Source of the DNA: Isoetes taiwanensis
Taxonomy: Eukaryota > Streptophyta > Lycopodiopsida > Isoetales > Isoetaceae
NCBI GenBank assembly: GCA_021234155.1
Contig: JAJEKV010000001.1
Coordinates: forward strand, 18,371,382-18,435,381
Length of the DNA stretch: 64,000 nucleotides
Direction of reading: 5' to 3'
Numbering within the stretch: the first letter of the stretch is position 1; the number at the start of each line of letters is the position of its first letter. Under the pieces are notes generated by a model. It had not been told where the DNA came from. It did not search any database and worked only from the letters and a program-made list of their open reading frames with translations. The translations under genes and the position numbers were made by a program. Shown one piece after another: positions 2,241-39,157 of this stretch.

Positions 2241-3196
2241 TGTGACGTTCCAGCATAACATACGATATGAATACGTATATTATACTGACACGTCACTAGT
2301 ACATGTCACGATGACCGTAAGGGGTAGTACCCTAGGGTACGACCTTGTGAACCATTATATTGCACATGTTAAAGCAACATGTGAATATAATCCCTTTTTG
2401 CCACATGGCAATGACCCATTGACCAAAAAGGGACCAGCCCTAAATGCGTGGAGATAAAGGGGCATAAACCCTAAAAGGGAAACTCTTTCAGTTTCAGGCC
2501 CTGAGTCTCGGATTGGAGCAGCAAAGGACGCATTTCCGCCTGAATGGAAGCAGAGAAGTCGGATTTCCTAGGTTGCAGCTCGATCCAAGATCAGTAGACC
2601 CGAGATCAGCAGCATGGACGCTTTCAGGGGAGTGGGAACCGGCCAAGAAGCGGGTTAGTGGTTGATCCGATAGTTAGATCCGAGTTTTCAGCTCTCATTC
2701 GATAGGATTCGTATTCATTCTTAGCTATAGGCGACCCCTACAGCTAAGAATGATAGGCACTAACAAAGGAACCTAACTATGTATGATTAGGTAGATTAGA
2801 ATAGGTGTATTCTATTATTTTCAGTTCTGTTGTGATGATGTCTTATCATTCTATGCGCCACTCTTGTGTATTGGGAAGGGGGGTAGAGACCCAGAGTCCA
2901 AGTAGTTGTATGATCCTAGTTTTAGCCCATTAATTCCCAATTAATGCGGCCTGTGCATAAGAGCCCGCCTGGCTGTGGGTGGCGGAGCTAGACCGTCTGA
3001 TAAGGAAGGGCTTGTCTGATCACAGTTGATCCCTCTGGTGCGTAGCGACGGCCGGGGAACATTGTGGGCTAGGCCTAATACCCTGGCACTGCGTGCGGGC
3101 AGGGTATGGGCTCGACACCTCTTGGGTGACGCGTCATCTTCTAGGGGTTCAAGTCGTATACGAGCAGTGGCTCTCTAGCTCGCCTGTGATTGGCAT
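2241..3196 (+). mobile_element. Older LTR, left part (split by a nested insertion)
   Basis: The LTR starts TGTGACGTTCC directly after the polypurine tract and is recognisably related along its length to the LTR at 3197-4835 (shared blocks around the GGGAAGGGGGGTAGAGACC and GCGGCCTRTGCATA motifs), but clearly more diverged. It stops at GGCAT, the target duplication of the 17.4-kb element, and continues at 20602-21185, where it ends CCGTCACA. The reassembled LTR is about 1.54 kb with TGTGACG/CGTCACA ends. It is the 3' LTR of the older element, because a polypurine tract precedes it. Confidence 0.8.
3192..3196. repeat. Target-site duplication GGCAT, left copy
   Basis: GGCAT directly precedes the LTR start at 3197. 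The same five bases follow the 3' LTR end at 20597-20601. Five bp is the usual duplication length for Ty3/gypsy integrases. Confidence 0.9.
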
Positions 3197-4835
3197 TGTG
3201 ACGTTCCAAGGGAATATACGCCATAAATACGTATATTCCTGGACCTGTCACCATACAAGTCTACCTAGGTAGCCTTGTATGCCTTGGATAAGTGGCAAGG
3301 GGTGCACATCTAAGTTAATTGTTTAACCTAGATAACCTTAGGATAAGATCCATTTTCCACATGGCCTTATCCTATTGGGGCAACCGCCACATGGCCTCAC
3401 CCTAGTGGTGCCACATGGCATCCTATATGGACCAACACCTATATTAGCTCTAACCCTAACCCTAGACCTTTTTCCCTGACCCAGCACCTGAACTCTCATC
3501 TACATGCCCGAAACCCCGTTTCGAGCATCGTTCGTCATAGCCTAGCCTGGAGCAGCAGCCCCTGGAAGGTGTGTATGATCGTTGAGGGAGCAAGTCTTCG
3601 AACCGCGTCAAGGAGCATGGAGACGCCAGGGATGGGAGGAAGCGCTTCCGGAGGAGGTAGGTTGAGTAGGGTTCATGTTAGTTCATCTGGAAGTTAGTAT
3701 TCCAGGTGGGTTGGTATGTTGTGTCTAGAGTAGAGCCACCCTAGATCCTTTGTTGAACATCTTGAACCCTAATCAAGGAACCCTAACTGATAGTTAGATA
3801 TGTATGATTAGGTTAAGATGTTCATATGATATTGTTCATGATGATATGTGATGATGGTTGATCATGTTGTTCCTCTTGTGTTGGGAAGGGGGGTAGAGAC
3901 CTAGGGCCATATGTAGTATGCTCCTAGTGTAGATCCCTTAGTTCCTATTAGATGCGGCCTATGCATAGGAACCCACCGGGCTATGGAAGCTATGATGTGA
4001 CTCAGCACTACACAACGGGCTAGAGGCAAGATGGAGGGTGGATCCCCGCCGAAAGTGGGGGCAGGGGGATCCCATAGTGGACTAGGCTTATGGCCGGTCA
4101 CTTCGTGTGGGCCGGGCATGGGTCCGACACCTCCTGGGGCGAAGGTGTTGCCCTGCCTCTCAAGAGTTGCAAGTGTTAGCTTGGCTCTTGTTTTGGGGTT
4201 TGATGTCAGTGCTAATCGTGTGTCATCACGATTCTCTAGCCTTGCCAGTGGAGCCTCTAGACCCGGGGAAGGGGAGATGCAACCCTTCCTACCTCAGCGG
4301 ACCGGGGAGATGCAACCTGGAGTAGTCCCCGATGGGTGATGCCATGGGATTGCGTGTCCCGAAGGTTAGAGTTACGCCTTGAGCTTGATCTAGCCTATTT
4401 GCAAAGTATGCATGTGGGGGGCGGATGGAGTGGTCAACCCCTAGCCATTGTCTTATGCCAGCCCCGCCATTGTTATGATTTGGGTCTGCTCTATCTTGAG
4501 GCCTATCCAAATCGACTTCCTTTTCGTCCGACCCACGGGTAGGATCTCATGTTTTATGGCATATGATTATGTTCTTTGCATCTATGGATATGCGATTGAG
4601 CTACTCTTTGAGGTAGCATATTGTATTGTATTGCTAGTTCTGACGTGTTTATGCTTCCGCTGTGATAGGAGCCCATAGGGGAAGGGCGGCGCCAAAGACA
4701 CCAGAAGTGTCCCCTTCACTACTACGGAGCTTCGAGTGCGGGATAGGCGAGGGCCTGTGGGCGGTTGTTGCCGGACGGGGGGATTTCCGCCGAAAGTGTA
4801 TGGTAGTACCGTGATATTTAGCGAGGGGCGTCACA
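3197..4835 (+). repeat. 5' LTR of the 17.4-kb element
   Basis: Starts TGTGACGTTCC and ends GGCGTCACA, giving 7-bp inverted termini TGTGACG/CGTCACA. It is matched by the 3' LTR at 18957-20596 and, from LTR base 75 onward, by the internal partial LTR at 6580-8139. The first ~780 bp are nearly identical among the three copies. The GC-rich second half differs here in many small substitutions and indels clustered at CG-containing words, whereas the other two copies agree with each other there. Confidence 0.92.
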
Positions 4836-4836
4836 A

Positions 4837-4848
4837 TGGTATCAGAGC
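4837..4848 (+). other. Primer-binding site, initiator tRNA-Met type
   Basis: TGGTATCAGAGC begins two bases after the LTR end. This is the standard plant LTR-retrotransposon sequence complementary to the 3' end of initiator tRNA-Met. Confidence 0.9.
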
Positions 4849-5398
4849 GATGTTCTTGGTTGACCAAGAACTAGCACTGACCATAACCATGAAAGTAGTC
4901 TAACAAGCCTATAGGGGTGAGAAATAGAAATTTCCACCATCGAGCCTCGAAAATGAGGGAAAATTTTCCCCAGGTAGTGAGTTCGAGATTAGGCTAAGTT
5001 GAAAGAATGAGTCAATTTACCTTCTAGTAAATTTGAAGTGAAAATTATGCATCTGCATCCAATTTCACCTAAAATGGGTCGAAGAAGCATGCCAATCTGA
5101 GACCCGAGTGAAAAATGGCGCAAATCCATAATTCACACTTCAAACCATTAGGAAATTGGAAAATTCAAAGGTATAATACGAATTTTAGGTGTATTAAGAA
5201 TTAAACATATATTAAAATTAAGGGTACTATGGGGTAATTAATAAGGGGGGCTAATAAGTAAGCCTATTAATGGTAGGAGAATATTCCCAGGGGCCTTCCT
5301 TTTAAATATCCCTGACACCTCATTTTTCCCTCCAAACCTTTCCTCCACCTTATCTCTCTTGATCAGCCTTACGTCACCTGTTTTCTTGACCGTCAAGT

Positions 5399-6513
5399 AT
5401 GGCTCGAACCAAACAAACCGGCGAGGAAAGCCGGCGAGTTTACCTACTCTCTCGATGGCGACTTTGGCAGCAGGTCGCCATGTTAAGAAGATCCCCGAAA
5501 GCACCTTCGACCTAAACCGGGGAAGGGGCCTTTCTCCAAGAAGCTAAAGAAGCAGCGATGAAACCTACCATGACGCCAAGAGGGGGTTTAGCAAGAGCTC
5601 TTCGCCGCCAGCACCCAGAGAACCGAGAATCCCGGTCACTTCGCTTTGACACCGAGGTGGAAGAGTTGTGTCAAGAGCAGCCCCACAGACGTGACCTCCA
5701 GAGGGGGCCCTTTCAAGAAGAAGGGCAAGGAGAAGGTTATGGAGTGGTCAAGACAGTACGCTAGGAAGAAGAGGGAAAGAGAGCCGAGCCGAGGGAACAG
5801 AAAGAAGGACGAAGAGGAGGAATGATCGCCCCGAGGACCGTAGAGTCGGGCGAAGAGCCTCCCAAGACGCAGGGAAGAGGAGGTGGAAGAGGGAGGAGAC
5901 GGCGAGGAGGAAGCAGAACCAAGACGCTTGGGAAGCTTCAAACCTCGGACAAAGACCACCTTATCCGGTGGCCCGAGCCACCTAAGGTGGTTAAGAAGCA
6001 GAAGGCGGGCGAGCGATCCTTCGCCTTGAAGGAGGACCGCCTCTACCAACGCCGCCTCAAGGCGTATCAACAATACCTCCGCCAGTGGACGAGGTATAAC
6101 GATTGGTACTGCCGGCAAAACGTCCAACGCACCGTGGAGGGGGGCCGGCCACCAAAGAAGCAGCCTGCAAACCACGCCACGGTAATCCCGAAGCCAAGAA
6201 GAAGGTCCACCATGGGCCTAACTCCCCGCACGCCCGAGCTTTTCGAGAGATTAAGCACTTTCAACAGTGCACTAATCTCTTGATTAGGAAGAAACCCTTC
6301 GAGCGGCTCATGCGGGAAGTAATGCAGGAGTTCGTCACCGACTATAGGGTGACGTCGCTAACAACTAGGGTGTTGCAGGTAGCTGCGGAGGCCGAGCTCA
6401 CCCAGTTGTTCGAAGAGGGAAACCTCTGCGCAATCCATGCGAAGAGGGTGACCCTGATGCCCAAGGACATACACCTGGCGCGTCGTATCCGCAAGGAACG
6501 TCCTTCAGGATGA
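5399..6513 (+). pseudogene. Broken first copy of the element's histone H3-like gene
   Basis: Aligns end to end with the intact copy at 8701-9816. The start is the same (MARTKQT), but a small insertion immediately after codon 7 shifts the frame, and further small indels recur through the tail and linker region. From about 6205 the histone-fold part is again open and nearly identical to copy two, reading through [14 protein letters not shown] to [13 protein letters not shown]. The final codons differ (TCAGGATGA instead of TGA). Many of the changes fall at CG-rich words, so the gene may be truly decayed or may carry consensus errors. Confidence 0.85.
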
Positions 6514-6579
6514 AGTTTTGTGTAAATTAATGTAATTGATAAAGTTTTCCCCCTATAAATCTAAAATTTTGTAGTAAAG

Positions 6580-8139
6580 AGCCTTGTATGCCTTGGATAA
6601 GTGGCAAGGGGTGCACATCTAAGTTAATTGTTTAACCTAGATAACCTTAGGATAAGATCCATTTTCCACATGGCCTTATCCTATTGGGGCAACCGCCACA
6701 TGGCCTCACCCTAGTGGTGCCACATGGCATCCTATATGGACCCACACCTATATTAGCTCTAACCCTAACCCTAGACCTTTTTCCCTGACCCAGCACCTGA
6801 ACTCTCATCTACATGCCCGAAACCCCGTTTCGAGCATCGTTCGTCATAGCCTAGCCTGGAGCAGCAGCCCCTGGAAGGTGTGTATGATCGTTGAGGGAGC
6901 AAGTCTTCGAACCGCGTCAAGGAGCATGGAGACGCCAGGGATGGGAGGAAGCGCTTCCGGAGGAGGTAGGTTGAGTAGGGTTCATGTTAGTTCATCTGGA
7001 AGTTAGTATTCCAGGTGGGTTGGTATGTTGTGTCTAGAGTAGAGCCACCCTAGATCCTTTGTTGAACATCTTGAACCCTAATCAAGGAACCCTAACTGAT
7101 AGTTAGATATGTATGATTAGGTTAAGATGTTCATATGATATTGTTCATGATGATATGTGATGATGGTTGTTGTTCCTCTTGTGTTGGGAAGGGAGGTAGA
7201 GACCTAGGGCCATATGTAGTATGCTCCTAGTGTAGATCCCTTAGTTCCTATTAGATGCGGCCTATGCATAGGAACCCACCGGGCTATGGAAGCTATGATG
7301 TGACTCAGCACTACACAACGGGGCTAGAGGCAAGATGGAGGGTGGATCCCTGCCGAGTGGGGGCTTCGGGGGATCCCATAGTGGACTAGGCTTATGGCCG
7401 GTCACTTCGTGTGGGCCGGGCATGGGTCCGACACCTCCTGGGGCGAAGGTGTTGCCCTGCCTCTCAAGAGTTGCAAGTGTTAGCTTGGCTCTTGTTTTGG
7501 GGGGTTCAGTCGGGTACGAATCGTGTGTCGTCACGATTCTCTAGCCGCCCGTGGAGCCTCTAGACCCCGGGAAGGGGAGATGCAACCCTTCCTACCTCAA
7601 CGGACCAGGGAGATGCAACCTGGAGTAGTCCCGATGGGTGATGCCATGGGATTGCGTATCCGGAAGGTTAGAGTTACGCCAGAGCTTGATCTAGCCTATT
7701 TGCAAAGTATGCACAGGAGGGGCGGATGGAGTGGTCAACCCTAGCCATTGTCTTATGCCAGCCCCGCCATTGTTATGATTCGGTCTGCTCTATCTTGAGG
7801 CCTATCCAGTCAGTCGACTTCCTTTCGTGTCGGAGCCACGGGTAGGATCTCTCATGTTTTATGGCATATGATTATGTTCTTTGCATCTATGGATATGCGA
7901 TTGAGCTACTCTTTGAGGTAGCATATTGTATTGTATTGCTAGTTCTGACGTGTTTATGCTTCCGCTGTGATAGGAGCCCATAGGGGAAGGGCGCGCAAGA
8001 CACCTTCGTGTCCCCTTCCCGCACTACGGAGCTTCCAGAGTGCGGGATAGACGGAGGGCCTGTGCGGTTGTTGAGCCGGACGGGGGATTTCCTGCCGAGT
8101 GTATGGCCGGGCGCCGTATATTTAGCAGGGAGCGTCACA
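6580..8139 (+). repeat. Internal partial LTR (first 74 bases missing)
   Basis: Matches the 5' LTR from its base 75 (AGCCTTGTATGCC) to its CGTCACA end. It is joined at 6579/6580 directly to sequence that follows the H3-like gene (GTAGTAAAG). The same GTAGTAAAG at 9888 continues into element-specific sequence instead. The segment 3271-6579 is therefore repeated as 6580-9888, a head-to-tail duplication with minimal shared sequence at the joint. Its GC-rich half matches the 3' LTR better than the 5' LTR. Confidence 0.9.
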
Positions 8140-8140
8140 A

Positions 8141-8152
8141 TGGTATCAGAGC
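8141..8152 (+). other. Second primer-binding site, tRNA-Met type
   Basis: TGGTATCAGAGC follows the end of the internal partial LTR, as part of the tandem duplication. Reverse transcription of this copy could in principle be primed at either site. Confidence 0.85.
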
Positions 8153-8700
8153 GATGTTCTTGGTTGACCAAGAACTAGCACTGACCATAACCATGAAAGT
8201 AGTCTAACAAGCCTATAGGGGTGAGAAATAGAAATTTCCACCATCGAGCCTCGAAAATGAGGGAAAATTTTCCCCAGGTAGTGAGTTCGAGATTAGGCTA
8301 AGTTGAAATGAGTCAATTTACCTTCTAGTAAATTTGAAGTGAAAATTATGCATCTGCATCCAATTTCACCTAAAATGGGTCGAAGAAGCATGCCAATCTG
8401 AGACCCGAGTGAAAAATGGCATAAATCCATAATTCACACTTCAAACCATTAGGAAATTGGAAAATTCAAAGGTATAATACCGAATTTTAGGTGTATTAAG
8501 AATTAAACATATATTAAAATTAAGGGTACTATGGGGTAATTAATAAGGGGGGCTAATAAGTAAGCCTATTAATGGTAGGAGAATATTCCCAGGGGCCTTC
8601 CTTTTAAATATCCCTGACACCTCATTTTTCCCTCCAAACCTTTCCTCCACCTTATCTCTCTTGATCAGCCTTACGTCACCTGTTTTCTTGACCGTCAAGT

Positions 8701-9816
8701 ATGGCTCGAACCAAACAAACTGCGAGGAAAGCCGGCGAGCGACCTACTCTCTCGATGGCGCACTTAGCAGCAGGTCGTCATGTTAAGAAGATCCCCGAGC
8801 ACCTTCGACCTAAGCCGGGGGAAGGGGCCTTCTCCAGCAGCAGCAGCGATGAAACCTACCATGACGCTGAAGAGGGGGGGCCTAGCAGTAGCTCTTCGTC
8901 AGCAGGCACCCAGAGAACCGGAGAATCCCGTCACTTCGGGCTTTCGGACACCGAGGTGGAAGAGCAGGTCGAAGAGCAGCCCCAGCACCAGACCCAGGAG
9001 GCGGGCCCTTCAGCGCCGAAGAAGAAGGGCAAGGAGAAGGTTGCGGAGTGGCCTGAAGACAGGGCCGCTAGGAAGAAGAGGGAAAGAGAGCGGGAGCTGA
9101 GGGAACAGGAAAGAAGGACGAAGAGGAGGAATGATCGGCCCCGGAGGACCGTAGTAATTGAAGAGCCTCCCCGGCACGAGGAAGAGGAGGTGGAAGAGGG
9201 AGGAGACGAAGAGGAGGAAGCAGATGCCGAAGACGTCGGGGAAGCTTCAAACCCCGACGCAAGACCACCTTATCCGAAGTGGCCCGAGCCACCTAAGGTG
9301 GTTAAGAAGCAGAAGGCGGGCGAGCGATCCTTCGCCTTGAAGGAGGACCGCCTCTACCAACGCCGCCTCAAGGCGTATCAACAATACCTCCGCCAGTGGA
9401 CGAGGTATAACGATTGGTACTGCCGGCAAAACATCCAACGCACCGTGGAGGGGGGCCGGCCACCAAAGAAGCAGCCCAAGCCGCCGCCACCACGACCCGA
9501 GAAGCCGAAGAAGGTCCACCATGGGCCTAACTCCCCGCACGCCCGAGTTTTTCGAGAGATTAAGCACTTTCAACAGTGCACTAATCTCTTGATTAGGAAG
9601 AAACCCTTCGAGCGGCTCATGCGGGAAGTAATGCAGGAGTTCGTCACCGACTATAGGGTGACGTCGCTAACAACTAGGGTGTTGCAGGTAGCTGTGGAGG
9701 CCGAGCTCACCCAGTTGTTCGAAGAGGGAAACCTCTGCGCAATCCATGCGAAGAGGGTGACCCTGATGCCCAAGGACATACACCTGGCGCGTCGTATCCG
9801 CAAGGAACGTCCTTGA
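8701..9816 (+). CDS. Retrotransposon-encoded histone H3-like protein with a long inserted linker (371 aa)
   Basis: Residues 1-10 are [10 protein letters not shown], identical to canonical H3, so the positions of K4 and K9 are preserved; S10 is replaced. Residues 27-37 ([11 protein letters not shown]) resemble the H3 segment before the fold. About 240 residues follow that H3 lacks: serine runs, a K/R/E-rich stretch, an acidic block ([19 protein letters not shown]) and an aromatic/arginine segment ([18 protein letters not shown]). Residues 280-371 form a complete H3 fold: [20 protein letters not shown], then [20 protein letters not shown] and RRIRKERP. Loop 1 has canonical H3 length, unlike most CENH3 proteins. 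There is no intron. It lies between the primer site and gag. A structural or chromatin-mimic role is plausible but unproven. Fold identity is very secure; function is inference. Confidence 0.95.
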
Positions 9817-9964
9817 GGATGAAGTTTTGTGTAAATTAATGTAATTGATAAAGTTTTCCCCCTATAAATATAAAATTTTGTAGTAAAGTGACTTCAATTT
9901 TGTATAAAAATGTGTCTAAGTTGTTCAAATTTTAGTTTAGTTGTAGCCATCATGACTGTAAGCA

Positions 9965-10389: not shown

Positions 10390-10397
10390 TATAAAAG
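10390..10397 (+). promoter_or_regulatory. Candidate internal TATA box
   Basis: TATAAAAG lies 118 bp upstream of the accessory ORF start at 10508, a spacing compatible with a separate promoter and a short leader. It is inside the element, far from the LTR promoter. Only the motif and its spacing support it. Confidence 0.4.
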
Positions 10398-10507: not shown

Positions 10508-12031
10508 ATGGCGCCCTCAAGCTTTGTCAGATGGTACAATGAGGCCAATCACATCCGTGAATTCCCTGCTGAGCAAGCCTACCATGTCTTCGATCATCTC
10601 TTTGACCTTCATGCCACCTTGACTAGAACTCCCTATTACACCGACATTATTTGCCAATATGATCAGCAGGTCTTACCCTGGGAAGTTAGTTTGCCACCTA
10701 GGGGAGGGAAATGGGTATCTCTAGACTCTCTGTCCCAAGCCATAGGAGGGGGATCTAGGATCAAGAATAAGCTATGGGATAGAACCAAAAACATGCCAGA
10801 CTACATGACCTGTAAGCATCATAGGCATAGGTACGTCTCCAATCAGGCAGCCTTAGCTTTGTTCATGCAGTACAGGGCAGTCAACCAACCAGGGGAGCCG
10901 TCAATTCAACCTTTGGATTTGGCACCTCTCGACACTCGGAGGCAGCAGATAGGTATTCACGAGATCGAGACTGCAGAGTACGAATACTACGGCTCCACAT
11001 CAGAAGCACCTATGTTGCAGATTGAGCAGGATTACGAGGAGGAAGAGGAAGAGAACCCAAGTTGGGAGATAAGGGAGGCAAGAAGGATGGAGAGGCATCT
11101 AGCTCGGCAACAGGAAGCACTAAGGCGAGACTTTGAGCCGCCAATGGGTATCACGGCCCTCACTCCAGTGATCATCGACGGCGAGGAGTACATAATCGCC
11201 AACGACATCCTCAACCTTCCCTATTGTCAAGAAGAAGGCCTCAGGACCGATGAGCTCCTAAGCCTAATGGCAGAGGAGCAGGGTAGCGACTTCATCGACT
11301 ATGATTACCAAGAAATTCCAAGGGAGGTAGCCGAGCGACATTCCTACGCCGGAACAACTATGTCAGACATTCAAGCCTACCAACAGATAAGACAGATGTA
11401 TCAGCAGCAGCAACCCATCATTCCAGAGGAGGAATTCCACGAGATCCAAAGCAGATTGTACAAGCCGGGAAGAGGCCCAAGCTCAAGCCGACCAGTGCGC
11501 TCTAGGAGCATGCGGGAAGCATCTGGCAGCATCAATCTGGAGAACGCAACAACAATGTGGAGGGATCATGAGGATCTTGTCGCATTAGATGTCTTCGGCG
11601 AAGCTGCTCAAAGGAAGGGTACGGGAACCGCCGTGGGAGGCAGGGATAAATCATTCAGATACTATCTTCCAGTCCTTAGCCAGGGGCAGATGGTAGTTTT
11701 CCACAAGGAGTTCAGCCCAAGAGGAGAAGAATCCGTCGCGCTCCTCATAGCACTCTCAGGGTTTGGTCAGCATGCCAGGATAGATTATGGAGTAGACCAT
11801 GTCATCCTCTTCAAGAGATCCGTAGCACTTCATGCCCTCGACTTCGCAAGGGGCCACCTCAGGGATGCGCACTTGTCAGTAGTGGCAGCAATTGCACCGG
11901 AACTTCCAGAACCTCAGATGGCAAGAGCATTGGAAGGAGGATCGGCATCAAGAATCCTACAGAACGTCGGCAAGGGGATAAGATTGAAGAATGTGAAGAA
12001 CTTCTTCAAGTCCATGAGCAAGCGCCGATGA
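10508..12031 (+). CDS. Accessory ORF of the 17.4-kb element, unknown function (507 aa)
   Basis: Intact ORF between the H3-like gene and gag, with strongly coding-like composition. Visible parts are an N-terminal region rich in aromatic residues (RWYNEANHIREFPAEQ at residues 8-23), an acidic block near residue 178 (EEEEEE) followed by a charged helix-like stretch (EIREARRMERHLARQQEALR), a Q-rich patch (MYQQQQP) and a basic C-terminal end (VKNFFKSMSKRR). I see no transmembrane segment, zinc finger, protease or polymerase motif and do not recognise the family. Other plant gypsy lineages sometimes carry extra ORFs, usually after pol rather than before gag. It may be an expanded gag-like or viral-type accessory protein. 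Confidence 0.85.
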   Translation: MAPSSFVRWYNEANHIREFPAEQAYHVFDHLFDLHATLTRTPYYTDIICQYDQQVLPWEVSLPPRGGKWVSLDSLSQAIGGGSRIKNKLWDRTKNMPDYMTCKHHRHRYVSNQAALALFMQYRAVNQPGEPSIQPLDLAPLDTRRQQIGIHEIETAEYEYYGSTSEAPMLQIEQDYEEEEEENPSWEIREARRMERHLARQQEALRRDFEPPMGITALTPVIIDGEEYIIANDILNLPYCQEEGLRTDELLSLMAEEQGSDFIDYDYQEIPREVAERHSYAGTTMSDIQAYQQIRQMYQQQQPIIPEEEFHEIQSRLYKPGRGPSSSRPVRSRSMREASGSINLENATTMWRDHEDLVALDVFGEAAQRKGTGTAVGGRDKSFRYYLPVLSQGQMVVFHKEFSPRGEESVALLIALSGFGQHARIDYGVDHVILFKRSVALHALDFARGHLRDAHLSVVAAIAPELPEPQMARALEGGSASRILQNVGKGIRLKNVKNFFKSMSKRR

Positions 12032-12362: not shown

Positions 12363-13308
12363 ATGACGCCGGAAGCAATCAACGCAAGGCTCGTTCAGAT
12401 GAGGAATCAGATGCATCAGCTGATCCACTGGGCCACCCCATTGATGAATGCCCAAGAATACGCACCTGCTCCACCTCCACCTCCACCACTACCCCCAACA
12501 AGGCATTGAAGAAGGCCCACAGCAGGAGGGACAAGACAATCAGGTGAATGTCAGAGACAGGAAAAGGAAAAGGAAAAACAGAAGATCTCCAACTCCACCT
12601 AGCTCCAGTTCATCGGACACTTCGCACACCCAAGACAGTTCTAGCTCAGAAAGTGAGTCTGACACTCCACAGGTAAGAGCCAGGGCAAGAAAGGCAGATG
12701 ACTATCAGAAGAAGGTTGACAGTGCTATGAGCAATGTGTGGAAGACTAGGAAGTTGGGTCAGTTCTCAGGAAAGGACAGGTCAGGTATGGAGGCAGAAGC
12801 ATGGCTTGACGAAATGGAGGAATTTGGCAACTCTTATAGCATGAAGGACAAGGATATAGGGAAAGTTGCTACAGCAAACTTGATAGGAGCAGCTAGAATC
12901 TGGTGGAAAGGCTATGCTAAGTCTAACAAGCTCAAAAGAAACAGTTGCAGATTCAAGACCTTCAGCAAAGCTTTCCGCAAGCACTATGTGCCAAGATCGC
13001 ACACTAGCAGGCAGATCCAGCAGTTCTATAGGTTGAACCAGGGTACATTGTCAGTAGCAAAGTATACAGAGGAATTCATGCAGCTCAGGCTCCATGTTCC
13101 CGGAGTATCAGAAAGGCAAGCGGTTGATACCTACATTGAAGGGTTGAACAGCAATATCAAGAGGCTTGTTAGAGCAATCAACCCAAGGTCAGTGGCAGAG
13201 GCCGAAGACAAAGCTATAAGTTTGGAAGAAGCACCATCGACTCCAGCAGAGAAACAGACGGCATTCAAGGGTAAAGCTTCGGGGCAGTACCAAGGGCAAT
13301 ACGAGTAA
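12363..13308 (+). CDS. gag: Gag polyprotein of the 17.4-kb element (frame break near 12490)
   Basis: The first part is open from an ATG at 12363 (MTPEAINARLVQMRNQMHQL) into a proline run that ends in a stop at 12507. The second part is open from 12448 in another frame, so one small indel in the proline run probably split one ORF. The main part has a basic stretch (RKRKRKNRR), a serine-rich segment, then a retrotransposon gag domain (AWLDEMEEF, ARIWWKGYA, FRKHYVP, QQFYRLNQGTLSVAKYTEEF). A splice-acceptor-like TCCTTGCAG lies upstream at about 12260-12268. The product would form the virus-like particle. The end at 13308 is followed by a frame-shifted zinc-knuckle region. Confidence 0.85.
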
Positions 13309-13523: not shown

Positions 13524-16127
13524 ATGCGTGCAGCTTTGGCAGAGCTTATGGATTGGGATTCTCCAACAGAAGCAGATGAGGACGACGACCAGCATGAGGC
13601 CCAGGACTTCATAGATGGTGAGTGCCACATATGTGCAAACATTGAGTCAGGTGATATTGAAAATCAGTCAACAGTCATTGCGGCTGATGGGATCATAGAT
13701 AGCAACCCATATGTAGTTCTCATAGACACAGGTAGTTCTCATAACTTCGCCTCTCCCAGGCTGGCCGCCCTAATGAAGAATAAGGTATTAAAGTCTAAGC
13801 CAAGGCCAGTTGCTATGGCAAATGGCGCCATTCGACACACTAAGGGGAGGAGGATCACATTCGACATAGACCTTAGTGGAAATAAGTGGCCGATGGGAGC
13901 AGAGGTCGTGGAAATTGGAAGGTATGACCTTATAGTAGGCATGGAATTCTTGAAGCTAGCCAAAGCCATAATTGATTGTGACCGCAACGAAGTCGCCATG
14001 ACGGCACCGGACGGCAGCAAGTTCGTAGTGAAAGGTAAGAAGGCAGCTCCTTCTATGCAGTGTATTTCCTTGAAGCACCTGAGGAAAAGTATAGAAAGAA
14101 ATAAGGTGGATTATATTTTGAGGTTAGTGGCAATTGAGCCCAATAAGCAGGATAGAAGCGATCAAAAGGGGAATCAGTTGCCCAGGCCAGTAGCAAGGCT
14201 CATCTCAGAATTTAAGGATGTATTCCCGGATGAAATCCGGCAGCTACCACCTTATAGGGGTGTAGAATGTAAAATCACATTAGCTCCAGATGCTAAGCCT
14301 ACCAGCAAGGCACCTTATAGGATGAGCACCCCAGAATTGATAGAACTCAAGAAGCAGCTCCAGGAATTGCTTGAGCTTGGGTTTATTAGAGCAAGTGTGT
14401 CTCCTTTTGGAGCACCTATACTCTTTGTGAGGAAGAAAGATGAGAGCTTAAGAATGTGCATAGACTATCGCCAGCTCAACAAGCAGACGATAAAGAACAA
14501 GTATGCATTGCCAAGGGCAGATGATTTGATGGACCAGCTCCAAGGAGCAAGGGTATTCTCAAAAATTGACTTAAGGTCAGGGTACCATCAGATAAGAATA
14601 AAGGAAGAGGATATCCATAAGACCGCCTTTAGAACGCGGTATGGTCACTTTGAGTTCACAGTAATGCCCTTTGGGTTGTCGAACGCTCCAGCAACTTTTA
14701 TGCGCCTCATGAACGACGTCTTCAGAGATTTTCTAGATGAGTTTGTCATTGTCTTCTTCGACGACATTCTAGTCTATAGCAAGTCCATTGAAGATCATGA
14801 TCAGCATTTGAGAAGGGTATTGGAAAAGTTGAGACGGCATCGCTTGTATGGCAAGCTCTCCAAGTGCCACTTTGCTACCGAAAGAGTGGAGTACTTGGGC
14901 CATGTAATATCGGCGGAAGGGATCTCCACCGACCCCGCAAAGATTGAAGCAGTAGTTGATTGGCCAGCTCCAAGGAATATAGCAGAAGTAAGAAGCTTTC
15001 TCGGATTGGCGGGATATTACAGAAAGTTCGTGAAGGACTTTGCTAAGTGGGCGTCCCCTTTGACGGACCTCACTAAGAGCGTTAAGGTGAAAGATTGGAA
15101 AACGCATTGGTTAGAGAAAGTTCAAGCTTCCTTTGAGAAGCTCAAGGAGGCCTTAACAACAGCTCCAGTGCTCGTCCTTCCAGATCCGAGTAAAGACAAG
15201 CTTGTGGCCACGGATGCAAGCAAGTTAGCAACAGGGGCAGTCTTGATGCAAGAAGAAAGGGTAGTCGCCTACGACTCGAAGAAGATGAACGACGCCGAGC
15301 AACGCTACCCAACCCATGATCAGGAGCTCCTAGCCATTGTCAGGGCACTAAGGATTTGGAGGCATTATTTGCTGGGAAGGAAGTTTCAGTTAGATACTGA
15401 TCACCAGAGCCTCCAGTATCTTTTCACCCAACCACTCCTCAACCTAAGGCAAAGGAGGTGGATGGAATTCCTTGAAGAGTATGATTTTGATATAGTATAT
15501 AAGCCCGGCAAGCTTAATGTGGTGGCAGATGCTCTCTCCAGGAGACCGCTTGAGACAAGAACGCATTGTAATGCGATTTCCACTCTTTCGAGTGAGTTTG
15601 GAAAGAAGATTGAGGAGACCCTGCCATTAGATGAGGATTTCAAGGAAGTATGGGAAAGCCTTTCTAGAGAGGCTAGAACAGATAAGGAACGGGAGGCCTT
15701 CAAGCATTATAAGAAGGAAGGCAACCTGTTGTATCATAAGCATAAGTTGTGTGTGCCCGAATCATCAGGGGTAAGGAAGCTAATTCTTCATGACACACAT
15801 AACAGCCCAATAGCAGGGCATGCAGGGTTTATGAAGACCTACTTCAAGATTCGAAGTAGTTATTTCTGGCCAGGGATGAAGAAGCAGATAGCCAGATATA
15901 TTCGGGAATGCCAGTTGTGTCAGCAGACGAAAGCGGAACAACTTCGAATTCCAGGTGCCTTAGAGCCATTGGGGGTGCCAAATGCTAAGTGGGAGGTCAT
16001 AAGTATGGATTTTATCACCGGACTCCCTAGAACTCTTCGAGGCAAGGATGCATTGATGGTTGTCGTAGACAAGTTATCTAAGATGGCACATTTTGTGCCT
16101 TGCGTAAACCTCTGGACACCGCATTAG
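13524..16127 (+). CDS. pol: Pol: aspartic protease, reverse transcriptase, RNase H and first part of integrase (867 aa)
   Basis: Protease active site DTGSS is at residues 68-72. RT runs roughly from residue 240 to 460 with [21 protein letters not shown] and the catalytic FFDDIL near residue 412 (FDD, the usual gypsy variant of YxDD). RNase H follows with VATDAS near residue 561 and TDHQSL. The integrase zinc-binding HHCC domain starts at H756 and ends with C796/C799. The first catalytic Asp is in SMDFITG near residue 829. The ORF stops at VNLWTPH because of a single-base-type frame change; the remaining integrase is in the ORF at 16100. Domain order is diagnostic of Ty3/gypsy. Confidence 0.95.
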
Positions 16128-17053
16128 ATCTTGCCAAGCTATTTGTAAAGGAGATTTTTAGACTCCATGGCATGCCTCGGGAGATAATTTCAGATAGGGA
16201 TTCCAAATTTATGAGTGCCTTTTGGCAAGAGCTCTTTAGCACGATTCAGACGAAGCTCTCCATGAGCACGGCATATCATCCCCAAACAGATGGTCAGACG
16301 GAGAGGACGAATCGCATCATTGAAGATATGCTTAGAAGCTTTGTGTGGAATAAGCAGTCCAAGTGGGATGAGTACATCCACTTGGTGGAATTCGCCTACA
16401 ATAGTGCCAAACAGGAGTCATCTCAGATGTCTCCTTTCATGGTAAATTACGGGTACCAGTGCTTAACCCCGGACACTTGGCACAATCCCGTGTCAAAGGT
16501 TGAAGTGTCCCAGCAGATGCTAGGAGATATGCAGCAGTTGGTGGAAGAAGTGAGGGGTTACCTCCTAGCAGCAAGAAGTCGGCAGAAGCAAGGGCAGAAG
16601 AGTGTAGCCGACAAGCACAGGACCGTAAGAGAGTTCAAGGTAGGCGATAGCGTGTGGTTGAAGATCAAGGTCAAGCAAGCTAAGCTTCGGATTGGGAGTT
16701 GCAAGAAGCTTGCCCCTAGGTGGGCTGGTCCATTCAAGATCTTGGAGAGAGTGGGCTCCCAAGCCTACAAGTTGGATCTTCCAGCCCATCTCAAAGTTCA
16801 CAAGGTTTTCCACGTAAGTTTATTGAAAAGGCACAATCCTAACCCCGAGGAGGTCTTGGATACTCCAACTTTGTTGGAAATGACTAAGAGCAAGTGGAAA
16901 TTGTGCCCGAAGTTACTTCTTGATAAGTCATTCAAGAAGACTAGGAGGTCTCGTTCTTCCAAAGATTTGGTCAAGTGGAAGCACTTGCCCGTGGAAGACG
17001 CAGCGACATGGGTATTGAAGCAGGATTTGGAGAAGCAATACCCGAGTTTATGA
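16100..17053 (+). CDS. Pol continued: integrase catalytic core and chromodomain-like C-terminus
   Basis: Overlaps the preceding ORF by 28 bases in another frame and continues its integrase. Residues D32 (SDRDSKF) and E68 (GQTERTN) with 35 residues between them complete the DD35E triad begun upstream. A GPY/F-like region follows ([20 protein letters not shown], then FHVSLLKRH). The last ~55 residues end [17 protein letters not shown], the core of a chromodomain. The aromatic cage looks incomplete, as in chromodomain variants of some plant chromoviruses. The first in-frame ATG is incidental; translation would normally come from the upstream ORF. Confidence 0.92.
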
Positions 17054-18943: not shown

Positions 18944-18956
18944 AAGGGGGGGAGAA
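18944..18956 (+). other. Polypurine tract for plus-strand priming
   Basis: AAGGGGGGGAGAA directly precedes the 3' LTR start TGTGACG at 18957. The older element has the equivalent AAGGTGGGGAGAA at 2228-2240. Confidence 0.9.
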
Positions 18957-20596
18957 TGTGACGTTCCAAGGGAATATACGCCATAAATACGTATATTCCT
19001 GGACCTGTCACCATACAAGTCTACCTAGGTAGCCTTGTATGCCTTGGATAAGTGGCAAGGGGTGCACATCTAAGTTAATTGTTTAACCTAGATAACCTTA
19101 GGATAAGACCCATTTTCCACATGGCCTTATCCTATTGGGGCAACCGCCACACGGCCTCACCCTAGTGGTGCCACATGGCATCCTATGTGGACCCACACCT
19201 ATATTAGCTCTAACCCTCACCCTAGACCTTTTTCCCTGACCCAGCACCTGAACTCTCATCTACATGCCCGAAACCCCGTTTCGAGCATCGTTCGTCATAG
19301 CCTAGCCTGGAGCAGCAGCCCCTGGAAGGTGTGTATGATCGTTGAGGGAGCAAGTCTTCGAACCGCGTCAAGGAGCATGGAGACGCCAGGGATGGGAGGA
19401 AGCGCTTCCGGAGGAGGTAGGTTGAGTAGGGTTCATGTTAGTTCATCTGGAAGTTAGTATTCCAGGTGGGTTGGTATGTTGTGTCTAGAGTAGAGCCACC
19501 CTAGATCCTTTGTTAAACATCTTGAACCCTAATCAACGAACCCTAACTGATAGTTAGATATGTATGATTAGGTTAAGATGTTCATATGATATTGTTCATG
19601 ATGATATGTGATGATGGTTGATCATGTTGTTCCTCTTGTGTTGGGAAGGGGGGTAGAGACCTAGGGCCATATGTAGTATGCTCCTAGTGTAGATCCCTTA
19701 GTTCCTATTAGATGCGGCCTGTGCATAGAAACCCACCGGGCTATGGAAGCTATGATGTGACTCAGCACTACACAACGGGGCTAGAGGCAAGATGGAGGGT
19801 GGATCCCTGCCGAGTGGGGGCTTCGGGGGATCCCATAGTGGACTAGGCTTATGGCCGGTCACTTCGTGTGGGCCGGGCATGGGTCCGACACCTCCTGGGG
19901 CGAAGGTGTTGCCCTGCCTCTCAAGAGTTGCAAGTGTTAGCTTGGCTCTTGTTTTGGGGGGTTCAGTCGGGTACGAATCGTGTGTCGTCACGATTCTCTA
20001 GCCGCCCGTGGAGCCTCTAGACCCCGGGAAGGGGAGATGCAACCCTTCCTACCTCAACGGACCAGGGAGATGCAACCTGGAGTAGTCCCGATGGGTGATG
20101 CCATGGGATTGCGTATCCGGAAGGTTAGAGTTATGCCAGAGCTTGATCTAGCCTATTTGCAAAGTATGCACAGGAGGGGCGGATGGAGTGGTCAACCCTA
20201 GCCATTGTCTTATGCCAGCCCCGCCATTGTTATGATTCGGTCTGCTCTATCTTGAGGCCTATCCAGTCAGTCGACTTCCTTTCGTGTCGGAGCCACGGGT
20301 AGGATCTCTCATGTTTTATGGCATATGATTATGTTCTTTGCATCTATGGATATGCGATTGAGCTACTCTTTGAGGTAGCATATTGTATTGTATTGCTAGT
20401 TCTGACGTGTTTATGCTTCCGCTGTGATAGGAGCCCATAGGGGAAGGGCACGCAAGACACCTTCGTGTCCCCTTCCCGCACTACGGAGCTTCCAGAGTGC
20501 GGGATAGACGGAGGGCCTGTGCGGTTGTTGAGCCGGACGGGGGATTTCCTGCCGAGTGTATGGCCGGGCGCCGTATATTTAGCAGGGAGCGTCACA
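18957..20596 (+). repeat. 3' LTR of the 17.4-kb element
   Basis: Starts TGTGACGTTCC after the polypurine tract and ends GAGCGTCACA, followed by the target duplication GGCAT. It is 1640 bp against 1639 bp for the 5' LTR. ORFs within it recur in all LTR copies and are not genes. Confidence 0.93.
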
Positions 20597-20601
20597 GGCA
20601 T
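20597..20601. repeat. Target-site duplication GGCAT, right copy
   Basis: Identical to 3192-3196. It marks the right boundary of the nested element inside the older LTR. Confidence 0.9.
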
Positions 20602-21185: not shown

Positions 21186-21737
21186 ATAATCAATACATAA
21201 ATGCAGACTCCCATCCTTCTTCTTTACAAATAAGACAGGAGCTCCAAATAGGGATGTGCTAGGCCTAATAAATCCTTGCTCTACCAATTTTTCAAGCTGA
21301 TTTTTAAGTTCTGCCATCTCTACTACATTAAAACGATAGGGAGGTCGCGAAGATGGTGCAGATCTTGGAAGCGATTCAATATCATGATTCACCTCACGGA
21401 AGGGAGGTAGTTCTGTTAATTTATCAGGGAACACATCCCGGAATTCTTCTAATACAACCTGGACACCTTTTGGAACAATAGTTTCTTGCATCTCCACAGC
21501 TTTACTTATCATTTCAACATACATGATTCCTCCTTTGTGCAAATAGCACTTTGCCTGCTTGCAGGTCGACACAGAAGGACCAGAAAATATAGGACGACTA
21601 TCCAATCTCTTGATAGAACCATTTGACAAGATGCAAAGGATAGCCTTGCTTTTACAATGGATTGTGGCCCCTATGACTTTCAACCACGACATTCCCAGAA
21701 TTAAATTGTACTTACCCAGATAATTATTGAACTTCAA
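21186..21737 (-). pseudogene. Gypsy protease-RT fragment (family B), minus strand
   Basis: Read on the minus strand it contains the end of a protease-like region (NLILGMSWL), a linker, and the N-terminal half of a reverse transcriptase ([38 protein letters not shown], then LHLCIDY). It is cut off at LHLCIDY by the older LTR element inserted at 21186. It is almost the same sequence as the plus-strand fragment at 38265-39672. Fragmentary; not functional. Confidence 0.9.
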
Positions 21738-22418
21738 TTATGCAGACTCAAACTGGACTAGACTCAAACTGGACTGCATGAAGAAATGCTAAAACGTCCT
21801 AATCCACTTTGTTCGCTGCAAGAGCAAAAGAGCAACTGAGCAAAATAATACATCCCTTATGCCATGGCTAATTCTGTGCTCAAGTGAATTTATGTTACTG
21901 TTCCTAATGTTATAGTCTCTTCCATTCTATCACAGCTATTTTTGTTTATTCATAGTTACAATGTTTTGATTCAGCTTCAAACTTCTATCTGCTGAGAGTG
22001 GAACTGACGTGATGTGATTCATGCTCCTTTCCTTTCATGATCAACAACCATATGGAGGAGGCAGCCGAAGCCACTATATGGAGTTTACTTGCAAGCTAAC
22101 AGTATCAGCATGATGGACTTCAGAAAAGTCAAATGGGCATTGTGGGCTTTTTCTAGATACGTGCTTAGATTCAAAAAAAATTCTTACATGTTTGCATGTA
22201 AAAGGATTGTGTTGTTAATAGCTCAGATAACATAGATAGCTGAGGAAGTGATGTCAAATTGGTTCAACAATGCCTAGCTTCTGAACCTTGCATGCAACAG
22301 CCTTATTCTTGTAAAAGGGGGTACATACCAAAATGTCATATGTATTGTTAAAAGATTAGATTTTAGATTTTATGTTATGCAGATAACCAACAAGAGGTGT
22401 TCTCGGGAGCAGTTTGCT
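21186..22418 (-). repeat. Long inverted repeat, arm A
   Basis: The gypsy fragment plus about 680 bp of flanking sequence (through TTCTCGGGAGCAGTTTGC at 22402-22418) recurs in reverse orientation at 37599-39672. The matching flank includes the ATCATGAAAGGAAAGGAGC and GCATGCAAGGTTCAGAAGC segments. The arms are separated by about 15 kb. Confidence 0.88.
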
Positions 22419-33661: not shown

Positions 33662-33912
33662 CCTCAATGCCACCTTCACCGCCATCCTCCCTTTTTCATT
33701 TTATTTTGTTGGGCATGTTCTAGGGGAAGTATCCAGAATATCCCAAGTTAACAAGATTGATTTTTATGTCTCATGTCTCGTGTTTAATTCTGCCAAGCCA
33801 TAGAATTTTACACCCCAATTGAAATTTTGAAATTCCATCTTGCTAGTGGTATAACTTGAAACTACTAAACTCCGCTTGGATGAAGAGTACATGTGGGGAA
33901 ACATAGTGCAAC

Positions 33913-36648
33913 TGATATGGATATGGTAGCTCGGGGGAGTGGCCTTGAACCTTGGTCTTGGTGGACTAGCATGGGTGTGTGAGATTGGCAAATTAATGGC
34001 AAGGCAAGGCAAATAAATTGGCAAAGATATTTTACGTTAATAATAGCTAAATAATATCATGTAAGATATTATTTAATGGCTAAGCTTTATAAGGCTTGTT
34101 TAAAAATAGGAATAGCCGAACCTTTTTCTAAAAGAGCCAGCATCGAATTTATAAGGGAGGCTGCATCGAATTTTCAGGGGCATCATCAACGGCTGTCGAC
34201 CAGATTTCGGACGTCTTCAACTAGCTGCTGCTGCCGACTCTGCTGATCCAGCCTTAAGCCCGCTTTGTCCATAAGCCTATTGAGCTTTCCTTTGCCGGAA
34301 CTGTGATCCTTGCCTTAAAGTATTGCCATAGCCTTCTGCTTTGCCATTGATTTGCCAGATCTCAACACCGGTTGGCCCGGTTGGGTGGAGAACTGCCATT
34401 AATCGCCTTGAATTGTGAATCTTCCTCTAGTTTTGGTGAACTAGAGCCGGATTATTTTGAGCTATCGGTGTAGTTCATATCAAAGCTAGATCCATATGAG
34501 TTATTGGTGTAACTCATATCTTATGTTCATTGGATCTGTGCTTATTTGTCTTCTTATTTCATACTTAGATCATTTTATCATTGCTAACGGTTTATTCTGT
34601 GGATTCTGTAGCAAACCTAGACGACTTACAGGTTATGAGATTCTGATTTGTTTGAAGAAGTCTGGTATTCTATTTAGAAGAGATAAAAGGTATGGTTTAT
34701 TGTTGTGAACCATATCAATTGGTATCAGAGCCAAGCTATTCCTAAAGTTTGCAAAGACTTTCGGTTGGTGCTGGAGATTGCAAACAGGAATAGAGAATCT
34801 TATTCTGGCTATTCTTGATGTTTGTAAGTCATCTAGTTGGTGCTAGTGATTGCAAATTGGAATAGAATTCCTTCTCCTTTGAGAATCTAAATGATCTTCT
34901 TTCTATGAATTTAAAATCTTTCCTTGAATTATTCTTTCATAATTTGATTCTACCCAGATCACTCAATCTTTAGATATATTGGTACGAAAAAAAAAATGTT
35001 TGTTGCAGGGAACATATAGGTGCAGGTGATTGGTGACATGGAACAAGCAGAGGGAACTGAGCCTAATCTTCCTTATCAATCCATTTCATTTTCCAAAATG
35101 GATCTCCTTCCAATCAAGCCTAAGCAGAACTGACAATCCATCTCCTTGGCCAGGATGGATCTCCATTGAAACTTTTTCTGCATCCATAGAGGACGGATCA
35201 ATCTTTATCTGAACTCTCTATCCTTGACAAATCTTGAACTATTCCAAACTAAACGAGTTTAGTGCGGTCCATTGTTTTAGTAAGATGTCTTGTTAATGAA
35301 TATTTGTCTGTAAGAAATTGTAAATCTATTTTATGATCGTGTTGCTTCTTCCTAATGAATGATCATGCCATTAATAGTTGCACAATGGTTGGTGCCATAA
35401 ACTTGTGTTGATGTTAAAGGATGACACTGAAATTCTAGATTGGTGTCTAGAGTTTTGTGCAGTAGTTGGTGCTACTGGTTGGAGTCGGTGCTTCAACAGG
35501 AACCCTTGATCTTTTCTTAATCTTGCCTTTATCTTAAAACTTAAATTTTATCTAGTAGATCTTAAGCTTTGCTAATATATTTCAAAAGAATAAATCAAAT
35601 CTTCCCTGAATTTTTATCTTAATCTTTAGCCACAACAGTTATGATTGTCATAAATAGTTGGTGCTATTTATGAGATCATAATCCTAGCCTTTGGTCCTTA
35701 AAATGGATTGAGTTGGTGCTCATGTACAAATTGAGTTGGTGCTCATGTACAAATTGAGTTGGTGCTCAATTGGATAAATTAAGTTGGTGCTTAATTTGTT
35801 TATGGACACAACTGAGGTCAGTTGCCTTCAGAAAGGGAGGAATTGATATGGATATGGTAGCTCGGGGGAGTGGCCTTGAACCTTGGTCTTGGTGGACTAG
35901 CATGGGTGTGTGAGATTGGCAAATTAATGGCAAGGCAAGGCAAATAAATTGGCAAAGATATTTTACGTTAATAATAGCTAAATAATATCATGTAAGATAT
36001 TATTTAATGGCTAAGCTTTATAAGGCTTGTTTAAAAATAGGAATAGCCGAACCTTTTTCTAAAAGAGCCAGCATCGAATTTATAAGGGAGGCTGCATCGA
36101 ATTTTCAGGGGCATCATCAACGGCTGTCGACCAGATTCCGGACGTCTTCAACTAGCTGCTGCTGCCGACTCTGTTGATCCAGTCTTAAGCCCGCTTTGTC
36201 CATAAGCCTATTGAGCTTTCCTTTGTCGGAACTGTGATCCTTGCCTTAAACTATTGCCATAGCCTTCTGCTTTGCCATTGATTTGCCAGATCTCAACACC
36301 GGTTGGCCCGGTTGGGTGGAGAACTGCCATTAATCGCCTTGAATTGTGAATCTTCCTCTAGTTTTGGTGAACTAGAGCCGGATTATTTTGAGCTATCGGT
36401 GTAGTTCATATCAAAGCTAGATCCATATGAGTTATTGGTGTAACTCATATCTTATGTTCATTGGATCTGTGCTTATTTGTCTTCTTATTTCATACTTAGA
36501 TCATTTTATCATTGCTAACGGTTTATTCTGTGGATTCTGTAGCAAACCTAGACGACTTACAGGTTATGAGATTCTGATTTGTTTGAAGAAGTCTGGTATT
36601 CTATTTAGAAGAGATAAAAGGTATGGTTTATTGTTGTGAACCATATCA
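33913..36648 (+). mobile_element. 2.7-kb non-autonomous LTR retrotransposon
   Basis: LTRs 33913-34717 and 35844-36648 (both 805 bp, about five differences by eye) start TGATATGG and end CCATATCA. The primer site TGGTATCAGAGCC is at 34720-34732 and the polypurine tract GAAAGGGAGGAAT at 35831-35843. The target duplication GCAAC is at 33908-33912 and 36649-36653. The 1126-bp interior has no substantial ORF and is punctuated by GTTGGTGCT motifs. With no gag or pol it must use another element's proteins, as TRIM/LARD-type elements do. The 70-aa ORF present in both LTRs is not a supported gene. Confidence 0.93.
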
Positions 36649-37591: not shown

Positions 37592-38264
37592 CCCGTTTTA
37601 GCAAACTGCTTCCGAGAACACCTCTTGTTGGTTATCTGCATAACATAAAATCTAAAATCTAATCTTTTAACAATACATATGACATTTTGGTATGTACTCG
37701 CTTTTACAAAGAATAAGGCTGCTGCATGCAAGGTTCAGAAGCTAGGCATTGTTGAACCAATTTGACATCACTTCCTCACCTATCTATGTTATCTGAGCTA
37801 TTAACAACACAATCCTTTTACATGCAAACATGTAAGAAATTTTTTTGAATCTAAGCACGTGTCTAGAAAAAGCCCACAATGCTCATCTGACTTTTCTGAA
37901 GTCCATGATGCTGATACTGTCAGCTTGCAAGTAAACTCCATATAGTGGCTTCGGCTGCCTCCTCCATATGGTTGTTGATCATGAAAGGAAAGGAGCATGA
38001 ATCACATCACGTCAGTTCCACTTTCAGCAGATAGAAGTTTGAAGATGAATCAAAACATTGTAACTATGAATAAACGAAAATAGCTGTGATAGAATGGAAG
38101 AGACTATAACATTAGGAACAGTAACCTAAATTCATTTGAGCACAAGGGATGTCTTATTTTGTTCAGTTGCTCTTTTGCTCTTGCAGCGAACAAAGTGGAT
38201 TAGGACGTTTTAGCATTTCTTCATGCAGTCCAGTTTGAGTCTAGTCCAGTTTGAGTCTGCATAA

Positions 38265-39126
38265 TTGAAGTTCAATAATTATCTGGGTAAGTACAACTTA
38301 ATTCTGGGAATGTCGTGGTTGAAAGTCATAGGGGCCTACATCGATTGTAAAAGCAAGGCTATCCTTTGCACCTTGTCAAATGGTTCTATCAAGAGATTGG
38401 GTAGTCGTCCTATATTTTCTGGTCCTTCTGTGTTGACCTGCAAGCAGGCAAAGCGCTACTGATGGCGTCACAACTACTTCTAACTTCATGGTCAACCCTA
38501 TGTTCAAGAAGGCTACAGTTCTTTAGATGGTTAGCCTTGCAGGGTGGAATCAGTACTATGGAGGTACTCCATCAAAGGGGAATGCTTGCAATGGACCGTT
38601 GTCCACTTGGATGCAATAATACGGAAACACTCTCACATTTGTTCTTTTGCCCCAAAGTTGTGGACTTTTGGAAATGGGTAAGTCCTCTTATTGGTGTTAG
38701 AACTGATCAATGTCTATGGCCTGAAATCTTGGTAGTAACTGATGGGGACAAAGTATCAGCATCATTGGTTAACATAGTGTTGTGGGCTATCTGGAAGCAT
38801 AGATGTGGAATTGCTCTTGGAGGACAGCACTTTTCGTTAGACAAACTAAAGAATATCTTTAATATGGAGGTGGCACTTATGGCTTTAAGCCATCATAGAA
38901 AGTTTGGTCGTTTCTACAACAAAGCTTTAGACAGGATTGGCAGGATCCAAGGCTTCTATCTGTTCTTTAAGTGTCACTGGGCGTCTGGGGATGATACGGG
39001 GGATGATTCGAGCTCCAGCTTGCAAAGGCTGGCCCTTGTATAACTTGGCTATTGTGATCTATTCCTTTAAATAGGAATTATGTACTACAGTTTTCTTTTC
39101 ATTTAATATAATATACCATATTCTTA

Positions 39127-39157
<31 letters not shown>

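Follow-up and report, generated by a model that had tools for sequence, protein, structure and literature searches.

Within the 64,000-nucleotide stretch of Isoetes taiwanensis DNA analyzed here (the window), an open reading frame for a histone H3-like protein (ORF1) lies inside an LTR retrotransposon. This raises the question of whether a core histone has become a gene of the element itself and, if so, what purpose the protein could serve.

Organization of the Retrotransposon

The ends of the element were located at 3197 and 20596, with the termini TGTGAC...GTCACA, and were flanked by an identical 5-bp target duplication (TSD), GGCAT, at 3192–3196 and 20597–20601. The 3′ LTR (18957–20596, forward strand), ending in ...GTCACA, was directly preceded by the PPT AAGGGGGGGAGAA (18944–18956, forward). 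A primer site (PBS), TGGTATCAGAGC, was read from the sequence at 8141–8152 (forward), and its primer was presumably a tRNA of the Met type. Profile matches placed gag (Retrotrans_gag, Ty3_capsid) at 12448–13308, and protease, RT, RNase H and the start of integrase at 13524–16127; the remainder of integrase, with an SH3-like part and a chromodomain-like end (about 16961–17044), was found in another frame at 16082–17053 (all forward), pol of the window copy being broken by a frameshift within the integrase. The chromodomain profile PF00385 matched the integrase C-terminus with an E-value of 8.5e-4 and 19.6 bits, against a curated cut-off of 25.1, and the motif LVKWKHLP was present there as well as in one locus of a sister family (family B, see below). 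The LTRs, TSD, PBS, PPT and gag-PR-RT-RH-IN order identified a Ty3/gypsy element, with the overall order LTR, PBS leader, ORF1 (H3), ORF2, gag and pol. The preliminary description had placed the H3 ORF between the PBS and gag of an LTR element; the LTRs, the GGCAT TSD and the PBS were all seen, but a second extra ORF of 507 aa intervenes. For this ORF2 (10508–12031, forward), no relative scored in a set of 5.8 billion proteins, weak matches occurred in one family B locus and in the family C locus, and its structure, predicted alone, reached a pLDDT of 33.8.

The 5′ end of the element was doubled, in two exactly abutting units of 3309 bp (3271–6579 and 6580–9888). To unit 1 belonged the outer 5′ LTR (3197–4835), which started with TGTGAC and was identical to the 3′ LTR over its first 144 bases before showing patchy differences, a PBS read as TGGTATCAGAGC (4837–4848), and a first, frameshifted copy of the H3 ORF (5399–6513, ATG at 5399), all on the forward strand. 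The second LTR copy (6580–8139, forward) was without the first 74 bp and differed from the 3′ LTR by 11 substitutions in 1560 aligned bases. Differences between the units were likewise patchy, amounting to 2 of 560 aligned bases in the leader and 75 of 383 in the stretch coding for residues 46–180; in the last LTR block, 43 of 140 bases differed between the outer 5′ LTR and the 3′ LTR. Given these patchy differences and an assembly that, according to excerpts of its description, comprises 1658.30 Mb in 204 scaffolds and 909 contigs and was built from Nanopore reads with gap filling by LR_Gapcloser (PMC8566536), the first unit is likelier to be a gap-filling product of poorly polished long reads than a real, decayed tandem duplicate. 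The patchiness also led us to reject the two units as a pair for dN/dS calculation. The conclusions on the H3 ORF are independent of the origin of unit 1.

Several further features were observed in the window. Inverted copies (95–97.5%) of another retroelement fragment lay at 21186–22418 and 37600–39519, the latter with ORFs matching RVT_1 and zf-RVT. An 808-bp direct repeat with 99.3% identity (33910–34717 and 35841–36648) may be the two LTRs of a young, small element. On the reverse strand, two ORFs at 40557–42817, one with DUF7869, perhaps represent a transposon-derived gene, and long overlapping ORFs at 42866–44696, consisting almost entirely of F, S, L and P, are probably a degenerate simple repeat.

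The H3 Protein Encoded by ORF1

ORF1 (8701–9816, forward) ran uninterrupted from ATG to TGA and encoded a retrotransposon histone H3 protein of 371 aa. Residues 1–10 (8701–8730) comprised the start Met and H3 residues 1–9 (ARTKQTARK), and residues 272–371 (9514–9813) made up an H3 histone fold, assigned by profile, PDB match and alignment. The C-terminal ~100 residues matched Pfam Histone (PF00125) at 3.4e-30, the best PDB chain for ORF1 was Histone H3.2 (1.6e-30), and 56 of 92 fold residues were identical to plant H3 in an ungapped alignment. The intact 371-codon frame with an ARTKQTARK start and an H3 fold at its end, as originally reported, was thereby confirmed by reading frame, profile and PDB match. 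A complete H3 tail (residues 1–38) was absent: residues 1–9 were kept, whereas residues 10–38 were replaced, about 250 unrelated residues following the kept part. This insertion had been described as ~240 disordered residues; its length is closer to 250, and it is perhaps not wholly disordered, as residues 209–249 were modeled as a single helix, the best-modeled part of an otherwise poor prediction (8-row alignment, mean pLDDT 46.6), on whose account no conclusion was built on the predicted structure.

Residues 176–262 had zero scoring relatives in the 5.8-billion-protein set. A search with the whole protein returned 3190 proteins, and the five examined among the 120 listed were H3 proteins bearing repeated H3 segments or parts of other histones; no relatives were found in viral contigs or in prokaryote genomes. 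In CENH3, loop 1 is longer than in H3. The ORF1 fold aligned free of gaps over 92 residues with canonical H3, in agreement with the earlier argument from loop-1 length for H3 rather than CENH3, and a CENH3 origin was rejected on this canonical loop-1 length, the comparison being with canonical H3 alone. A chance ORF was also rejected. An assembly chimera of the ORF itself was rejected as well, since the ORF recurs at many loci.

Recurrence and Purifying Selection

The window's own assembly (1,658,258,908 bases in 1110 sequences) was searched for ORF1, and at least 110 matches, the window included, were scored from 20469 first-look candidates. Seventy-nine of these lacked an in-frame stop (frameshifts outside this count), an intact share that is biased because the compared copies were ranked by likeness to the window protein, which favors intact ones. 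Restriction of the ORF to a single copy, which would have counted against the earlier reading, was thus excluded. Stretches of ~10 kb were fetched for 20 of the 109 other matches, namely those ranking highest after the window itself. The element leader was found upstream of ORF1 in all 20 loci (second half only in L027) and LTR sequence before ORF1 in 19 (not in L027; last part only in L026). An ORF2 match followed ORF1 in 19 loci (not in L012; displaced and partial in L020), and 16 contained a gag match inside the fetched stretch (not L012, L020, L023 and L024; a fragment in L025). A deep member of the window's family, L048, also had an LTR and primer site upstream (L061). The suggestion that multiple elements share the ORF ahead of gag was therefore borne out, with a constant position throughout the fetched loci. 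A recent transduction of a host gene was ruled out, as the copies differed at up to 30% of sites, with a pooled dS of ~0.9.

Putative expression signals were found ahead of both extra ORFs. A TATA-like motif, TTTAAATA (8603–8610, forward), lay ~90 bp before the ORF1 ATG and was present in 20 of 20 aligned rows (the window and 19 of the 20 loci, L028 being left out), and a TATA box, TATAAAA (10390–10396, forward), lay 112 bp before the ORF2 ATG in 16 of 18 aligned rows. The 561-nt leader ahead of ORF1 contained 11 ATGs, for which reason the full-length RNA would be a poor template for ORF1. A separate message for each of ORF1 and ORF2 is plausible from this arrangement. The hexamer ACGTCA, which we take to be that of plant histone promoters, was observed just 5′ of the ORF1 start (window 8670–8680) in 17 of 20 rows, after the TATA-like motif.

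For the analysis of selection, 41 ORF1 copies were aligned, comprising the 21 best, including the window, and 20 ORFs chosen from lower in the match list; six of the 41 contained one in-frame stop each. The dN/dS of the whole ORF was 0.143 over 20 disjoint closest pairs and 0.124 over all 820 pairs. By segment, dN/dS was 0.049 for residues 1–10, 0.272 for residues 11–45, 0.148 for residues 46–180, 0.146 for residues 181–271 and 0.077 for the fold. Neutrality was rejected for every segment (largest binomial p 2.9e-19), and residues 1–10 were under tighter constraint than residues 11–45 (Fisher p 1.6e-5). Neutral evolution of the ORF can accordingly be set aside, and the proposal that selection kept both the modifiable tail and the fold was upheld, these being the two segments with the lowest dN/dS. 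In copies picked for matching in one stretch or nearly so, gag had a dN/dS of 0.177 (12 copies; ORF1 at the same loci 0.126) and ORF2 of 0.144 (7 copies; ORF1 at the same loci 0.141). We do not think that similarity ranking by itself would pull a neutral ratio down to 0.14 at such a pooled dS. Because ORF1 recurs in a fixed place with a dN/dS similar to those of gag and ORF2, it is, as judged from sequence comparison, a gene that belongs to the element and is maintained by purifying selection of roughly the strength acting on gag.

The conserved positions were distributed over both ends of the protein. All copies except L028 covered the tail. Among these 40, R2, T3, K4, T6 and K9 were kept in every copy, A1 and R8 in 39 and Q5 in 38; A7 was retained in 33 copies and replaced by Y in 5, and the S10 position was occupied by F, A, Y, P or T, with S in none. 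In the fold, K64, R72, C110, H113, A114, K115, R116, M120, K122 and D123 were present in all 41 copies, R63, R83 and L126 in 40, and R49, R69 and R129 in 38. These are presumably DNA-contact and H3–H3′ interface residues, and we take C110, H113, D123, L126 and R129 to form the H3–H3′ interface used in nucleosomes. Seventeen fold positions were fixed yet unlike the plant H3 used, including L82Y, F84V, S87L, V89T and S90R, and these changes may affect pairing with H4 or chaperones.

Sister Families and Acquisition of the H3 Fold

When the assembly was searched with plant H3, at least 150 matches were scored from 9022 candidates. They included 15 full-length host H3 genes (96–98%) and at least 135 others at 71–86%, many of them in frames of 400–570 aa. 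Eight of the 135 were fetched and typed by fold, seven as family B (L049–L055, of which L053 and L054 covered the near-fold part only) and one as family C (L056), the window's family being designated A. Where readable, an N-terminal part unlike that of the window was fused to the H3 fold in both families; in family B the first ORF read MA[IN]TK...APDP... followed by the fold (L049–L055, L058, L059). Family B is possibly more numerous than family A. Two B loci of 10 kb each (L058, L059) had the same primer site as the window and LTR stretches ~70% like those of the window, and the pol of A and B was ~80% identical where best preserved in these loci. L058 contained a relative of ORF2 (23%) and gag (60–63%); no ORF2 or gag match was found in the 10 kb of L059. 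At the C locus (L056/L060, downstream side only), the fold was followed by a relative of ORF2 (short, 33%), then by gag at 60% and pol at 61%.

Before the fold, homology was found between B and C and was absent between A and B, and a match to the H3 tail was restricted to family A. Since families B and C carry the H3 fold without a tail, the fold rather than the tail is the shared feature. In five copies of family B, dN/dS was 0.035 for the fold and 0.129 before it. Over 93 positions, 80–82 were identical to host H3 in B (five copies), 79 in C and 50–62 in A (41 copies; window 57), and the window fold shared 54–56 of 93 residues with the B folds. One to three changes from host H3 were shared by A and B, with Y54F in all pairs and a terminal P in nearly all, while B and C shared S87F, V89I, T107A and I124L, of which only I124L occurred in A (12 of 41 copies).

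These patterns bear on how H3 was acquired. It may have been captured twice independently, once in A together with the tail and once in B/C with a different N-terminal region, or just once, its N-terminal part changing afterwards. Two captures would account for the four changes common to B and C, which apart from I124L were missing from the A copies, for the dissimilarity of A and B outside the fold, and for folds more diverged between the window and B than the pol sequences. On the other hand, the H3 ORF occupies the same slot beside the same neighbor, ORF2, in A and B/C, and Y54F and the terminal P are common to all or nearly all A–B pairs. Because identity to host H3 ranged so widely within A, and because some A copies carry I124L, we regard one and two captures as evenly balanced. 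A history of two captures is compatible with the nucleosome explanation considered below; it is a matter of history, not function.

Possible Function of the Element-Encoded H3

In our assessment it is moderately probable that ORF1 is a long-selected gene of a chromovirus-like Ty3/gypsy clade and encodes an element-specific H3 variant that would be built into nucleosomes. Incorporation into nucleosomes is favored as the core function, with the tail as an addition of the window's family, because the H3 fold is the sole feature common to families A, B and C. Selection on the fold was strong in both A and B, and the nucleosome-type residues were kept in A. Against this reading stand the 17 fixed fold positions that depart from plant H3, the replacement of H3 residues 10–38, and the lack of the tail in B and C. 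The ORF1 protein would be made from its own message by way of the internal TATA-like motif, would enter the nucleus, and would there pair with host H4 and join nucleosomes, most likely where DNA of the element has just been synthesized or inserted. Its N-terminal parts would be family-specific additions; those of A comprise stretches rich in charged residues, possibly a helix, and the K4/K9 tail end. How this chromatin is handled by the silencing machinery of the host, or by the integrase of the element, could then depend on the long charged insertion and, within family A, also on the K4/K9 tail.

The alternative that survived best is a decoy for silencing, in which the free ORF1 tail would occupy host K4/K9 methyltransferases or readers and the fold would serve for stability or nuclear retention only. 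The constraint on residues 1–10, the tightest of all segments, and the consistent lack of S at the next residue would suit such a role. However, families B and C are tail-less and nevertheless have folds identical to host H3 at 79–82 of 93 positions, the B fold is under very strong constraint, the DNA-contact residues, needless for a pure decoy, were kept, and A7 was replaced by Y in some copies, so that a decoy appears unlikely. Somewhat less credible is a packaging role, with ORF1 as a component of the particle that compacts the RNA or cDNA of the element, either in the cytoplasm or within the pre-integration complex, its fold binding nucleic acid without host histones. The location of ORF1 ahead of gag, selection like that on gag, and the long basic and acidic stretches carried by ORF1 are in line with packaging of this kind, but the conserved C110, H113, D123, L126 and R129 argue for real tetramer formation, and conservation of a tail with modification sites also speaks against it.

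Nucleosome incorporation could also form part of a chromatin-marking system encoded by the element, in which its own H3 variant, with a K4/K9 tail and no S10, would be laid on element DNA and read by the integrase chromodomain or by host factors, thereby steering insertion or escaping silencing. We consider this full scheme improbable, slightly more so than packaging. Reading of H3K9me by the element's own integrase chromodomain is doubtful because, as judged by eye, two of the three cage aromatics were missing from the chromodomain-like end, although the LVKW tryptophan was present. These cage aromatics are described in the accessible portions of PMC3350952 and PMC6317226, where the ligand of this chromodomain type is stated to be unknown. 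Lastly, a transduced host gene carried as a functionless passenger, conceivable since capture of host genes by plant retrotransposons is known (available text of PMC7264820), is hardly credible given the fixed place of ORF1 in diverged copies and its dN/dS of 0.14, unless ranking by similarity has badly distorted the sample.

That a large element family preserves its own H3 suggests that elements influence the chromatin they occupy, and a core histone as a standard retrotransposon component would give a genome parasite a direct route to shaping chromatin. This opens to experiment the questions of whether nucleosome components can come from transposable elements, whether a signal can work with H3 residues 1–9 alone, and which ligands the plant type II chromodomains recognize. 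The host is probably a quillwort, and living plants may thus be available for such tests.

Comparison with Known Systems

Histones encoded by viruses include the histone doublets and sets of giant viruses and the H4 of bracoviruses. As in the element described here, a core histone resides in the genome of a virus or mobile element; however, these are DNA viruses with other histones and arrangements, whereas ORF1 sits in a retroelement. Plant CENH3 is an H3 variant with a diverged tail, in which it resembles ORF1, but loop 1 of ORF1 has the length of canonical H3.

Among retrotransposons, the closest structural counterpart is the eORF-5′F class, defined in the consulted sections of PMC6317226 and PMC7264820 by an ORF in forward orientation, 250 codons or longer, that precedes the polyprotein. 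With its 371 codons on the same strand before gag, ORF1 belongs to this class, and it followed the leader in all 20 loci. As the most prominent contents of eORF-5′F, Neumann et al. (2019, PMC6317226) and Vicient and Casacuberta (2020, PMC7264820) give Transposase_28, the plant mobile domain and Athila ORF1 domains there; no histone is among the contents named in these sections, whereas ORF1 encodes H3. More generally, the portions consulted of PMC6317226, PMC7264820, PMC12786077, PMC3350952, PMC8566536 and PMC10541799 made no mention of a retrotransposon-encoded histone, the word "histone" was absent from the main text of PMC7264820, PMC8566536 and PMC10541799, and among the papers listed by a thin literature search no title or beginning of an abstract described a histone-encoding retrotransposon.

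A host-type regulatory protein is also carried by an orchid Ty3/gypsy lineage, whose additional ORF encodes an AlkB demethylase said, in the available part of the report, to raise the element's own expression (PMC12786077). AlkB targets RNA methylation there, whereas the window element has a core histone instead. Chromoviruses with type I/II chromodomains, as far as covered by the extracts of PMC3350952, resemble the window element in the order of pol, which is that of Ty3/gypsy elements, and in an integrase with a chromodomain-like end; reading of chromatin is known or presumed for them, whereas the element described here additionally encodes a histone. The Ty3/gypsy chassis with an extra 5′ ORF is therefore known, and a core histone in that slot appears to be new.
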